Part shown: positions 10,573 to 42,042 of the stretch, piece by piece | Layout: each line of letters begins with the position of its first letter | How positions within the stretch are numbered: the first letter of the stretch is position 1 | Assembly (NCBI RefSeq): GCF_008017545.1 | Contig: NZ_VRTZ01000002.1 | Span: forward strand, 62,001 to 126,000 | DNA from: Homoserinibacter sp. GY 40078 | GTDB lineage: Bacteria > Actinomycetota > Actinomycetes > Actinomycetales > Microbacteriaceae | Length of the DNA stretch: 64,000 nucleotides | Direction: 5' to 3' | The notes under the pieces: generated by a model | The model's database searches: none | Told to the model about the DNA's origin: nothing | The model's input: only the letters and a program-made list of their open reading frames with translations | Translations under genes and position numbers: made by a program

Positions 10573-10613
10573 CCTCCCTGCCCCGCGCCCTCCGCGCCGC
10601 GCCCCTCTCTCTT

Positions 10614-10683
10614 CCCCGTGAGAGTACGCACTTTTGCGTGCTCTCACGCCCGAGAGCACGCAAAAGTGCGTACTCTCACGGGG
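10614..10683. repeat. 31-bp perfect inverted repeat
   Basis: Arms at 10614-10644 and 10653-10683 are exact reverse complements with an 8-base loop. The sequence is built around GAGAGTACGCACTTTTGCG. It lies 41 bases after the ftsY stop and 41 bases before the LLM oxidoreductase start. It could end ftsY transcription, but its length and exactness exceed ordinary terminators, so it may be a REP-like mobile palindrome. Confidence 0.9.
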
Positions 10684-37333: not shown

Positions 37334-38062
37334 ATGTCGAAGCGCCGCCGCGTCCTGCTCAAGCTCTCGGGTGAGGCGTTCGGCGGTGGTCAGCTGGGCG
37401 TGAATCCTGATGTCGTCGGCGGCATCGCCCGCGAGATCGCGGAGGCGACCCCGAAGGGCGAAGACGATGAGGGCGGCGTCGAGGTTGCGGTCGTCGTCGG
37501 CGGCGGCAACTTCTTCCGGGGCGCGGAGCTCAGCCAGCGGGGCATGGACCGCGGACGCGCCGACTACATGGGCATGCTCGGCACCGTGATGAACGCGCTC
37601 GCTCTCCAGGACTTCCTCGAGCAGGCGGGCGCACAGGTGCGCGTGCAGTCGGCGATCTCGATGACGCAGGTCGCCGAGCCGTACATCCCTCTCCGTGCCG
37701 AGCGGCACCTCGAGAAGGGTCGCGTCGTGATCTTCGGTGCGGGTGCCGGGCTCCCGTACTTCTCCACCGACACCGTGAGCGCCCAGCGTGCGCTCGAGAT
37801 CGGTGCGGATGCGGTGCTCGTGGCCAAGAACGGCGTCGACGGCGTCTACACCGCCGACCCCCGCAAGGATCCGACCGCCACGAAGCTCGACCGCATCAGC
37901 TACCAGGAGGCGCTCGTGAAGGGCCTCAAGGTGGTCGACTCGACTGCCTTCAGCCTCTGCATGGACAACGGCATGCCGATGCTCGTGTTCGGCATGGAGC
38001 CGGAGGGGAACATCACCAAGGCGCTCCAGGGCGACCACATCGGCACCCTCGTCACCGCGTGA
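37334..38062 (+). CDS. pyrH: uridylate (UMP) kinase
   Basis: Phosphorylates UMP to UDP in pyrimidine synthesis; bacterial-type amino-acid-kinase fold. Features are [13 protein letters not shown] (phosphate loop), [13 protein letters not shown], and the [15 protein letters not shown] block. At 242 residues it is complete. The ATG at 37334 follows AAGGACC. It normally precedes frr directly; here DUF3097 and a CHAP-protein gene lie between them. Confidence 0.97.
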
Positions 38063-38072
38063 GCGCTCGCGC

Positions 38073-38888
38073 ATGAGCGATCGGTACGGCGAGGACGTCC
38101 TCGCGGGTGATTGGCGCGCCCGGGGCCGCGTGAGCGTGCCGACCGTCGAGGCCGCGCGCGACCTGGTCGTCGAGCTCGCCGACGGTTTCGTGGGAGCAGT
38201 CGTCGGCGTCGAGAAGGGGAACGTGGGCCTCGAGGACCGCCACGGGCGGGTGCGGTGGTTCCCACTGGGCGGCGGGTTCCTTGTGGACGGCGCTCCGGTC
38301 GTGCTCGCGGCGCCCCGGGTGGCGGATCGCGGGCGCGCCTATACGGCATCCGGATCCCGGGCCGTGGCGGGGCAGAGGGCACGGGTAGCCCGAGCGAGCC
38401 GGATCCTCGTCGAGGGGCGGCATGACGCCGAGCTGGTCGAGAAGGTCTGGGGCTCGGATCTGCGCGTCGAAGGCGTCGTGGTCGAGTACCTGGAGGGCGT
38501 CGACCATCTGGCTGAGACGCTCGTCGATCTGCAGCCGGGGCCGGACCGCCGCATCGGCGTGCTCGTCGACCACCTCGTCGCGGGCTCGAAGGAGTCGCGG
38601 ATCGCGGAGCGGGTGCAGGGTGAGCACGTGCTGGTGGTCGGGCATCCGTACATCGACATCTGGCAGGCGGTGAAGCCCGAGCGGGTCGGCATCCGGGCTT
38701 GGCCCGCGGTGCCGCGGGGCATCGAGTGGAAGCACGGCGTGTGCGAGGCGCTCGGCTGGCCGCACGACGACCAGGCGGACATCGCGGCGGCCTGGCAGCG
38801 CATCCTCGCCTCCGTGCGCACCTACGCCGACCTGGAGCCCCCGCTCCTCGCCTCCGTCGAGCGCCTCATCGACCACACCACCACCTGA
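38073..38888 (+). CDS. DUF3097 family protein
   Basis: A 271-residue protein of an actinobacterial family of unknown function. RILVEGRHDAELVEKVWG resembles a TOPRIM start (conserved Glu), and IGVLVDHLVAGSKESRI supplies a later Asp, so a TOPRIM-like metal site is possible. It follows pyrH by 10 bases and probably shares its transcript. The stop is 9 bases before the hairpin element at 38897. Confidence 0.85.
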   Translation: MSDRYGEDVLAGDWRARGRVSVPTVEAARDLVVELADGFVGAVVGVEKGNVGLEDRHGRVRWFPLGGGFLVDGAPVVLAAPRVADRGRAYTASGSRAVAGQRARVARASRILVEGRHDAELVEKVWGSDLRVEGVVVEYLEGVDHLAETLVDLQPGPDRRIGVLVDHLVAGSKESRIAERVQGEHVLVVGHPYIDIWQAVKPERVGIRAWPAVPRGIEWKHGVCEALGWPHDDQADIAAAWQRILASVRTYADLEPPLLASVERLIDHTTT

Positions 38889-38896
38889 CTGGTCCG

Positions 38897-38953
38897 TGAG
38901 GGGTCGCAAACTGCTCGAGACACGGCGTGTTGGGCGCAGTTTGCGACCCCTCA
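38897..38953. repeat. 57-nt hairpin element, copy 1
   Basis: 18-base arms TGAGGGGTCGCAAACTGC (38897-38914) and its complement (38936-38953) enclose a 21-base loop that itself contains ACAC-GGC-GTGT. Copy 2 at 40350-40406 is its reverse complement with one mismatch. The pair brackets the CHAP-protein gene. Confidence 0.92.
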
Positions 38954-39000
38954 AAAACGAGCATCTCGCGCGATTGAGGCGGGGACGCTACGCTCCGGTC

Positions 39001-40275
39001 ATGAAGAAACCTCTGCGAATCTCTGCTGTTGCGGTGGCGATGGTCGCCACGGCGACGCTCATCCCCGCGGCACCCGCCGCGGCGTACAACGGGTACTGTG
39101 TCAACTCCGAGTGCAATGCGCTGTACAACGATACGTACTCGATCTGGCAGGACAACTGGGAGCCGACACCGGGGCGGGGTTGGTGGGGTACGACGGCTGG
39201 TCACAATTGCACCAACTACGTGGCGTGGAGGTTGACTCGCGATGGTGTGCCTGCCAAAAGCGGACTTGGCAACGCAAAGGACTGGGACAACAATCTCGGC
39301 GCGAGTGGCCATGTGTATTCGCAATCAGCGTCCGCGAACCATGTCGTCGTCGGCGCGGTCGCACAGTGGAATGAAACTTCGGTACCTCCAAAGGGCCACG
39401 TTGCCTACATCCAAGAAGTAGTCGCGAACTCGTACATCGTCCTTTGGGAGGACGGAACCGGTGGCAACTTCCGGATCAAGAAGGTGCTGTGGAACAGCTC
39501 GGGCTGGCCCGACAACATCCTCCATTTCAACGGCTCGGAGCCCGCACCCCCGCCGGGGTTCGAGGAGGAAGAGGAAGAGGCGCCGTCGAACGAGATGGTG
39601 CTGGCTGACTGGCGCTTGAACAATGCCAACGACTCAAGTTCCGCAGACCTCTCTTATTCGCACGGACTGCCGGGAGACGTGCCGCTCATGGGTGACTGGG
39701 ACGGCGATGGAATCGACACCGAGGGCGTTTTCCGCAACGGTCGATGGATCCTGACGAACGTGCAGGGTGGCGGTGCGAGCTTCCAGAGCTACATCTTCGG
39801 CAACGGGTCGGACACACCGCTCGTCGGCGACTGGGATGGCGATGGGATCGACACCCCGGCGCTCTGGCGGGAGGGTAAGTGGTACATCTCGAACGAATTC
39901 GGGGCATCGGCGCCGTATACGATCCACGTCTACGGAAAGAAGACAGACAAGCCCGTCGTCGGTGACTGGGATGGCGACGGCGTCGACAGCTTCGGCGTCG
40001 TGCGCAAGGACATTTGGATCCTGACCGACACCCAGTCCAGTGATCAGGCGTACGACGGGTTCCTGTACGGAAAGCCCGGCGACATCCCTGTCGCCGGTGA
40101 CTGGGATGGGGACGGAGTCGACACCATCGGGGTCAAGCGCGATGACAAGTGGATCCTCACCAACACCTGGTCAAGTGCCCAGTCGTGGCCCTTCCTCTAC
40201 GGACGTGATCACGACATCCCTCTCGTCGGTGACTGGGACGGGAACGGTACCGACACGATCGGAATCGCCCGCTGA
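39001..40275 (+). CDS. secreted CHAP-domain protein with five DWDGDG repeats
   Basis: A 424-residue secreted protein. The signal peptide is about residues 1-28 (MKKPLRISAV..., cleavage after AAA). A CHAP (cysteine/histidine amidase-peptidase) domain spans about residues 55-178, with Cys70 in HNCTNYVAWRL and His133 in KGHVAYI; such domains cut peptidoglycan. A Glu-rich linker (187-193) leads to five repeats of about 44 residues, each with the core GDWDGDGxDT, a calcium-binding FG-GAP/VCBS-like unit. Base composition is visibly less GC-rich than its neighbours. TACGCT at 38989-38994 suggests a leaderless mRNA. Confidence 0.88.
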   Translation: MKKPLRISAVAVAMVATATLIPAAPAAAYNGYCVNSECNALYNDTYSIWQDNWEPTPGRGWWGTTAGHNCTNYVAWRLTRDGVPAKSGLGNAKDWDNNLGASGHVYSQSASANHVVVGAVAQWNETSVPPKGHVAYIQEVVANSYIVLWEDGTGGNFRIKKVLWNSSGWPDNILHFNGSEPAPPPGFEEEEEEAPSNEMVLADWRLNNANDSSSADLSYSHGLPGDVPLMGDWDGDGIDTEGVFRNGRWILTNVQGGGASFQSYIFGNGSDTPLVGDWDGDGIDTPALWREGKWYISNEFGASAPYTIHVYGKKTDKPVVGDWDGDGVDSFGVVRKDIWILTDTQSSDQAYDGFLYGKPGDIPVAGDWDGDGVDTIGVKRDDKWILTNTWSSAQSWPFLYGRDHDIPLVGDWDGNGTDTIGIAR

Positions 40276-40278
40276 TCC

Positions 40279-40308
40279 GATGGGGGCGCTCAGATGGGCG
40301 CCCCCATC
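40279..40308 (+). terminator. hairpin terminator after the CHAP gene
   Basis: GATGGGGGCGC and its complement form an 11-bp stem with an 8-base loop, 3 bases after the stop codon. Confidence 0.75.
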
Positions 40309-40349
40309 TCCCACGCGCTGCACCCCCCGCGAGATGTTCCTCTCTCCCG

Positions 40350-40406
40350 TGAGGGGTCGCAAACTGCGCTCAACACGCCGTGTCTCGAGCAGTTTGCGAC
40401 CCCTCA
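40350..40406. repeat. 57-nt hairpin element, copy 2 (inverted)
   Basis: Same 18-base arms as copy 1 at 38897-38953. The 21-base loop is the reverse complement of the copy-1 loop with one difference, so the two copies stand in opposite orientation about 1.4 kb apart. Confidence 0.92.
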
Positions 40407-40480
40407 ACGACCGAGCTCTCGCGGGGGGTCAGTAAGCTTGGGCGTTGGATCAACCGCGCAGCACCGAAGGAGCCACTCCC

Positions 40481-41032
40481 GTGATCAGTGACGTTCTCGC
40501 CGAGGCGAAGGAGAAGATGGGCCGAGCGGTCGAGGTTGCGAAGGACGACTTCGCGACGGTGCGCACCGGCCGCGCCAACCCGGCGCTCTTCCAGAAGATC
40601 CTCGTCGACTACTACGGCACCCCGACTCCGCTCGCGCAGCTCGCGAGCCTCCAGAACCCCGAGGCGCGCACTCTCGTCATCACGCCCTACGACAAGTCGG
40701 CGCTCAAGGAGATCGAGAAGGCCATCGTCAACTACCCGAACCTCGGGGCGAACCCGAGCAACGACGGCAACATCGTGCGCGTCACGATGCCCGAGCTCAC
40801 CGAGGAGCGCCGCAAGGAGTACGTGAAGATCGTGCGCCAGAAGGGCGAGGACGCGAAGATCGCGATCCGCAACGTGCGCCGCAAGGCGAAGGACGATCTC
40901 GACGCCACGAAGGAGGTCGGCGAGGACGAGATCGCCCGCGCCGAGAAGGAGCTCGACCAGATCACGAAGTCGTACGTCGACGCGATCGACGAGGCTTTGA
41001 AGCGCAAGGAAGCCGAGCTTCTCGAGGTCTGA
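40481..41032 (+). CDS. frr: ribosome recycling factor
   Basis: Releases ribosomes from mRNA with EF-G after termination. The 183-residue sequence has [24 protein letters not shown] and the C-terminal [27 protein letters not shown] helix. GTG 40481 has a GAAGGAGCC ribosome-binding site; TAAGCT at 40433-40438 is a candidate -10. The ATG of cdsA shares the last base of the stop. Confidence 0.97.
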
Positions 41033-42042
41033 TGGACGACGACCCCGGCGCGAGCGCGACGCGGAAGCGCACCGCACGCGAGGAGTTCGAGGTGCGGGCG
41101 CAGCAGAGACGCGCCGATCTCGAACAGCATGCTCAGCACGCGCGCGAAGAGTTCGAAGCCCAGGTGCGGCACGCCCGTGATCAGTTCGACGCGACGCAGG
41201 AGCGGATCCGAGAACGTACGGGACGCAACCTGCTCGCCGCGATCGCGATCGGCGTGGTCCTCGGCGGCACGCTGCTCGCGAGCCTGCTGTTCTCCACCTG
41301 GATCTTCATGCCGTTCGCGGCGGTGTTGCTCGGATTCACGGTGTTCGAACTCGCGACGGCGTTGCGCCATGCGGGCCGGGACGTCCCGCGGGTCGCGTCG
41401 ATCGTCGTCGGCATCGCCGCCGTACCCGCCGCGTTCTTCTTCCATGTGCCGGGGCTCTGGCTGGCGACTCTGGCCGGGGTGCTCGTCATCACACTCTGGC
41501 GGCTCGGCGAGCTCGTCCGTCCCAGCCACCGCGGCTCCGCCCGCGACGTGTTGGCGGATATCGGCGCCGGCCTGTTCGTGCAGCTCTACGTCACCTTCTT
41601 CGCGGGCTTCTACGTGGTCCTCGCAGGTGAGGTCGCCAACGGCGGGCAGTGGTGGCTGCTCGCGTCGCTCATCGTGGTCGTCACGACTGACGTCGGTGCG
41701 TATGCGAGCGGACTCGCGTTCGGCCGGCATCCGATGGCCCCCAAGATCAGCCCGAAGAAGACCTGGGAGGGCTTCGCGGGGTCGGCGCTCGCGGCGATGA
41801 CGGCAGGAACTCTGCTCGCCTGGCTGATGCTGGGCCAGCCGTGGTGGGTGGGCACCCTGATGGGTGCCGTGCTGATGCTCGTCGGCACGATGGGCGACCT
41901 GATCGAGTCGCTCATCAAGCGCGAGCTGGGCATCAAGGACATCTCGGGGTGGTTGCCCGGTCACGGCGGATTCCTCGACCGGCTCGATTCGATCCTCCCG
42001 TCGGCGGCAGTCGCCTACGCGTTCTTCCTGATCTTCCATTGA
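41032..42042 (+). CDS. cdsA: phosphatidate cytidylyltransferase
   Basis: Makes CDP-diacylglycerol from phosphatidic acid and CTP, the branch point to phosphatidylglycerol, cardiolipin and phosphatidylinositol. About eight membrane segments follow, and the family signature is SPKKTWEGFAGS, then KRELGIKDISGWLPGHGGFLDRLDSI near residues 300-325. A charged coiled-coil-like N-terminal extension of about 60 residues precedes the first helix and is not part of the catalytic family core. It overlaps frr by one base. Confidence 0.95.
   Translation: MDDDPGASATRKRTAREEFEVRAQQRRADLEQHAQHAREEFEAQVRHARDQFDATQERIRERTGRNLLAAIAIGVVLGGTLLASLLFSTWIFMPFAAVLLGFTVFELATALRHAGRDVPRVASIVVGIAAVPAAFFFHVPGLWLATLAGVLVITLWRLGELVRPSHRGSARDVLADIGAGLFVQLYVTFFAGFYVVLAGEVANGGQWWLLASLIVVVTTDVGAYASGLAFGRHPMAPKISPKKTWEGFAGSALAAMTAGTLLAWLMLGQPWWVGTLMGAVLMLVGTMGDLIESLIKRELGIKDISGWLPGHGGFLDRLDSILPSAAVAYAFFLIFH

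Follow-up and report, generated by a model that had tools for sequence, protein, structure and literature searches.

The stretch analysed here (the window, 64,000 nucleotides (nt) of Homoserinibacter sp. GY 40078, contig NZ_VRTZ01000002.1, positions 62,001 to 126,000) contains a gene for a CHAP-domain protein (39001..40275, + strand, 424 amino acids) between two inverted copies of a 57-nt hairpin, element 1 (38897..38953, +) and element 2 (40350..40406, -). Hairpins of this family, termed A, are dispersed over the genome, and another pair of them brackets the gene of a predicted nuclease. Altogether, the scattered palindromes beside predicted nuclease genes point to a previously unrecognised self-spreading repeat system. 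We consider it fairly probable that this system resembles that of repetitive extragenic palindromes (REP) and their REP-associated tyrosine transposases (RAYT), is run by an unrelated nuclease, and includes the two hairpins of the window as members of the family that belongs to the nuclease bracketed elsewhere in the genome.

Predicted nucleases and their hairpin brackets

A reading of the window from its sequence alone had proposed a search for other genes flanked by the same 57-nt element. In the window's genome (G000; 2.98 Mb, 3 contigs) a second inverted family-A pair encloses the gene of a 302-amino-acid protein (L023:2149-3057). In the predicted structure of this protein an AbiEi-like part lies in front of a C-terminal part resembling Vsr and homing endonucleases, so that it is regarded as a predicted nuclease combining AbiEi-like and Vsr-like folds. 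The PADLOC models for AbiEi match its N-terminal part. Among 21 members of the nuclease family, 16 matched MTES_1575 and five DUF559, while NCBIfam gave no match at E <= 0.01 for the three nucleases of G000. An AbiEii-type partner was not noticed beside the A nuclease among the neighbours at L023, for which the translations were only read and no dedicated search was made. All nine genomes of the genus encode homologues of the nuclease, as do 115 of the 150 genomes searched from Microbacteriaceae (at E <= 1e-10) and 85 of the 296 searched from Actinomycetota (at E <= 1e-15).

The association of these genes with repeats was determined by aligning the 350 nt left of each gene to the 350 nt on its right, with a score of at least 20 taken as a match, a threshold set after the null had been seen. 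Matching repeats on both sides were found for 96 of 134 distinct nuclease genes, mostly in the form of hairpins with their own sequence. By group, these were 19 of 21 genes in the genus, 43 of 66 in the family (the top of the homologue list and not a random draw), 23 of 33 in the named genomes and 11 of 14 in other families and orders. Only 2 of 131 control genes reached the score, the CHAP gene being one of them, and among 685 cross-locus pairings, which include the contig-end loci L101 and L115 with wrong gene bounds, the proportion was 0.6%. A first null had been inflated by shared families and contig-end loci and was replaced. The fragments L082, L083, L089, L090, L092 and L093 were omitted from the test together with L115, as were repeats of the same gene (L094-L096, L164, L169, L170, L183); L101 entered it with corrected gene bounds, and L179, whose frame is not open, and L185, a partial match, were kept.

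The palindromes flanking the nucleases differ from gene to gene. Two further nucleases of G000 have hairpin families of their own, B and C, with at least about 18 places (some partial) and at least 21 places, respectively, both counts being lower bounds with 40 of the 48 candidates scored. Thus brackets are strongly associated with nuclease genes, and different nucleases have different hairpins. Some relatives of the A nuclease with an identity of 35-45% keep related arms: the hairpin arm beside the relative in Cryobacterium psychrotolerans is GAGGGGTCGCAAA, and that in Leifsonia poae is GAGGGGTGGCAAA with the core AACACGCCG. Hairpin similarity climbs only above about 50-60% protein identity and, as judged from these comparisons, the hairpins diverge quickly.

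Dispersal of the family-A hairpin

Family A comprises 23 copies in G000, which are mostly single and intergenic. All 23 carry GAGGGG and CCCCTC near their ends, and an off-centre CGGCG.GT is common to 22 of them once oriented by the core; the core consensus and the covariation within G000 were determined for these 22 copies, the degenerate one at C2:137641 being excluded. According to our own gene calls, a neighbouring stop codon is no more than 60 nt away for 17 of the 23 copies, in six the terminal TGA of the element is the stop codon itself, and two are located between divergent genes (L024, L038). One copy, at L021:2030-2086, forms in-frame coding sequence near the 3' terminus of a gene, whose reading frame continues through the 57 nt (19 codons) and ends directly behind them. 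Two intergenic gaps hold two A hairpins each, in direct tandem 4 nt apart at L037 (G000:C3:110662, 110723) and inverted 44 nt apart at L032 (C1:1459558, 1459659).

Across the nine genomes of the genus, the numbers of family-A copies vary with the cognate nuclease. Three genomes encode the A nuclease, either L067 itself or a protein 64-69% identical to it, and 23 copies were found in G000, 10 in G005 and no fewer than 9 in G007, compared to 5, 5, 0, 0, 0 and 0 in the six genomes whose best homologue shows an identity of at most 43%; since a G000 copy was used as query, diverged copies may be missed. The differences between copies were determined for 43 of them (all 23 of G000, 6 of 10 of G005, 7 of G007, 4 of 5 of G002 and 3 of 5 of G004). 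Between genomes, copies at orthologous sites differed at 14.1 of 55 positions and copies at other sites at 14.2 of 55, while the differences within a genome amounted to 8.1 in G000 and 9.0-12.0 in the other four. For 38 of these copies, from all five genomes, the stem showed covariation in 33 cells versus 10.3 after shuffling (0 of 500 shuffles), with slid versions reaching at most 9, although kinship among the sequences can inflate this result.

For 11 sites of single A hairpins, each compared with two to seven of the other genomes of the genus (mates), the orthologous gaps were empty, or contained an A hairpin, or contained an unrelated hairpin; at the L031 site no hairpin was present in G001, G003, G005 and G007. 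The slots in the mates (L201-L254) often hold an unrelated hairpin in other species, as if they were hot spots or as if hairpins replaced one another. At sites orthologous to L029 (L201, L202, L204, L205, L206, L220), a distinct short inverted repeat of the form GATTGT..GACAATC was observed just 5' of the next gene, perhaps as its operator.

The CHAP gene and other bracketed single genes

The sequence-only reading had described two elements with identical 18-base arms and loops that are reverse complements with one mismatch, and this description was confirmed. The arms TGAGGGGTCGCAAACTGC and their reverse complement are exact in both elements (4 matches versus 0.05 expected in shuffles), the 57-mers differ at a single position after one of them is reversed, and the inverted similarity spans 63 nt at 95%. 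Element 1 carries the directional core CGGCGTGT in forward orientation, and element 2 is its inverted counterpart; the two are sister copies. Their single-strand folding is strong, with z values of -6.6 and -7.0, and an Rfam scan of 38000-41500 gave no match. As also described, they enclose a single gene and its terminator-like hairpin (40279..40308, +, 14-nt arms), which is separate from both elements. The CHAP domain (Pfam, E 3e-10) covers residues 62-147 of the protein and is followed by a C-terminal repeat region. Five repeats of 132-135 nt with a DWDGDG-like motif (39651-40255) encode the C-terminal half, which has matches with 36-42% identity in four further genomes of this order.

The reported lower guanine-plus-cytosine (GC) content of the gene was found again: it amounts to 61.3%, compared to a window mean of 69.6% and to 61.7% in the lowest of the sampled stretches (1275 nt each, one every 255 nt). 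The CHAP gene is therefore compositionally foreign. The positions of pyrH, DUF3097 and frr likewise agreed with the earlier description, and the empty site that it proposed to look for was present in all eight mates. Here, the gap between DUF3097 and frr comprises 51-128 nt between the aligned ends, and no match to the CHAP protein was detected in the eight genomes, neither at this site nor elsewhere. Its absence from all eight mates and a GC content below that of every sampled stretch of the window make a gain by this lineage the most likely history of the gene.

The sequence-only reading suggested a gene cassette, and this corresponds to cassette transposition, in which hairpin, gene and hairpin form one moving unit, the nuclease acts on the hairpin ends and the CHAP gene is cargo. 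The empty site, the foreign composition and the sister brackets are consistent with this proposal. Furthermore, six more single genes of G000 lie between hairpins of one family, B or C (L280-L285), and close same-family pairs exceed random expectation (B 5 versus 0.22, C 3 versus 0.31, A 2 versus 0.37 with P 0.05), where each count includes one nuclease pair and the expectation assumes uniform and not intergenic positions. From their translations, the six products are MpaB-like, DUF899-like, GNAT, esterase-like, GIY-YIG-like and a 94-amino-acid protein. The bracket partners are mutually the closest copies at L282, L283, L284 and L285, one partner at L280 ties with another copy, and at L281 this does not hold. 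In the comparison with relatives, which covered L280-L284, two genes showed a patchy distribution, with L281 found in four and L284 in three of the eight mates.

The other three of these five genes are resident and stand against a moving unit: the L280 gene adjoins its right-hand neighbour in all eight mates, the L282 gene is separated from its right-hand neighbour by no more than about 2 kb in all eight, and the L283 gene is present in all eight and adjoins its right-hand neighbour in seven. No bracketing pair was found at 18 orthologue loci of L280, L282 and L283 in six mates, nor at two of L281; six of the loci had one palindrome. Furthermore, the best bracket matches around nuclease genes are about equally inverted (53 of 96) and direct (43 of 96), unlike transposon ends, although orientation is blurred in palindromes. 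The general rule that brackets mark moved cargo was accordingly dropped. Since L280, L282 and L283 are resident in relatives, both sides of an unmoved gene can acquire hairpins, whether through local copying or because a flanked allele was exchanged. For the same reason, namely that similar pairs surround genes which relatives keep in place, bracketing alone is no evidence that the CHAP gene was carried. The earlier reading had also named many scattered hairpins without cargo as an observation that would refute a cassette, and this is largely what the 23 mostly single copies show. The wider system, in which the same hairpin brackets a nuclease gene, was not visible to that reading. Altogether, the cassette reading is supported in part, and we regard cassette transposition as unlikely. 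In the case of the CHAP gene, the hairpins may have carried it in, may have supplied the homology by which it integrated, or may have been copied to its two sides later.

Proposed mechanism, alternatives and relation to known systems

The preferred reading, a REP/RAYT-like system run by the AbiEi-Vsr nuclease, could proceed as follows. The AbiEi-like N-terminal part would recognise the cognate hairpin, and the Vsr-like C-terminal part would cut the DNA at or near it. Repair or copying could then put hairpin copies into tolerated intergenic slots, and the installed copies would often lie just past stop codons and often near an existing copy. By analogy, such a system would act like REP/RAYT or like free-standing homing, with a different enzyme. 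A wider version, in which a new kind of actinobacterial mobile DNA would mobilise its own palindrome by the AbiEi-Vsr nuclease, both solo and as hairpin-gene-hairpin, and thereby capture single genes such as the CHAP gene and deliver them between conserved genes, is advanced only tentatively and appears doubtful.

Several results weigh against the preferred reading. G002 and G004 keep five A hairpins each without the A nuclease, the stem covariation within G000 alone (22 copies) was not above shuffles, and a constant target-site duplication was not seen by eye at the flanks of the 23 A copies. Of the nuclease genes, 38 of 134 remained below a score of 20, and a few of the 96 match by simple repeats without a hairpin (e.g. 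L141, L290, L294). Hairpin and protein similarity were uncorrelated overall (90 loci; rho 0.05, permutations reaching 0.11). Moreover, Foldseek gave no match at E <= 0.001, the best being mitoribosomal proteins with 1.3e-3, and with values of 0.024 for Vsr and 0.032 for I-Bth0305I the fold assignment rests on a second look.

Alternatively, the hairpins could be moved by a different transposase, such as a RAYT or a DDE element of which they are the ends, with the AbiEi-Vsr nuclease as a passenger or a hairpin-binding defence gene. The match of the PADLOC AbiEi models is in line with a defence gene, and PMC3733652 and PMC3116915 describe RAYT transposases as the presumed movers of REPs. However, the brackets accompany the nuclease beyond the limits of genus, family and order, the hairpins change from one nuclease gene to another, and the GTAG tag is absent from the A3 consensus, so that this explanation is considered quite improbable. 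The bracketed protein family is not an HUH tyrosine transposase; a RAYT or other transposase elsewhere in G000 was not searched for. Least probable of all is a role of the hairpins as terminators or regulatory sites that benefit the host, with AbiEi-like proteins binding inverted repeats and dispersed copies kept near stop codons as terminators, since the proximity to stop codons, the supply of the TGA and the high stability of the two window hairpins are opposed by the two copies between divergent genes, by orthologous slots of other species that contain no hairpin or one of an unrelated family, and by the terminator-like hairpin which the CHAP gene already has.

The REP/RAYT systems show the closest described behaviour, according to PMC3733652, PMC3116915 and PMC8049555. 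REP/REPIN-RAYT systems (REPtrons) share with the present one the short intergenic palindromes dispersed in many copies, the bracketing of the enzyme gene by the repeat and the occurrence of several families per genome, each with its own enzyme gene. To our knowledge, they are also the best-known example of palindromes scattered over bacterial genomes and served by an enzyme of their own. The two systems have neither enzyme nor repeat in common: RAYT is an HUH tyrosine transposase, while the protein here is AbiEi-like and Vsr-like; REPs carry a GTAG tag at one end, while the family-A consensus has no GTAG; and the unit here is one palindrome of about 55-70 nt, in family A with a directional core. 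The Vsr-family (EDxHD) homing endonuclease I-Bth0305I and free-standing homing endonucleases have a catalytic domain of a fold similar to the predicted one and a gene in intergenic DNA, but the cognate palindromes beside the gene and genome-wide and the AbiEi-like part in front are found only here. The AbiEi-like part is shared with the AbiE type IV toxin-antitoxin systems, whereas here it is fused to a domain with a predicted nuclease fold. Miniature inverted-repeat transposable elements and composite transposons likewise comprise short non-coding repeats and inverted copies bracketing genes; the present hairpins differ in being nearly perfect palindromes without a constant target-site duplication seen, and the CHAP bracket lacks a transposase gene. 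In a literature search that did not extend to preprints or to most subscription papers, no description of AbiEi-Vsr nucleases linked to cognate palindromes was found. If the preferred reading is true, a second, unrelated enzyme class would be linked to its own palindromes, many hairpins of high-GC actinobacterial genomes would be explained, a common gene family that has no specific name would receive a suggested function, and the way in which a repeat might be spread by a homing-type nuclease could be tested.

Further features of the window

The bracketed CHAP gene lies between the DUF3097 gene (38073..38888, +) upstream and frr (40481..41032, +) downstream. Outside element 2, a left arm ACCCCCCGCGAGA (40322..40334) and a right arm TCTCGCGGGGGGT (40417..40429), both family-B-like, were found, so that element 2 sits between them. 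In G002, the gap between DUF3097 and frr holds another hairpin with family-B-like arms, CGAGATGTC...GACATCTCG. Because such arms flank element 2 and the G002 hairpin lies at the same spot, these short arms suggest that element 2 entered an older hairpin of the G002 type. A short stretch resembling a B arm, GAGCATCTCGCG, is also located 3' of element 1 (38959..38970). Finally, the window contains a single hairpin of family C (10613..10683), other members of which flank the nuclease gene at G000:C1:11187 on both sides.
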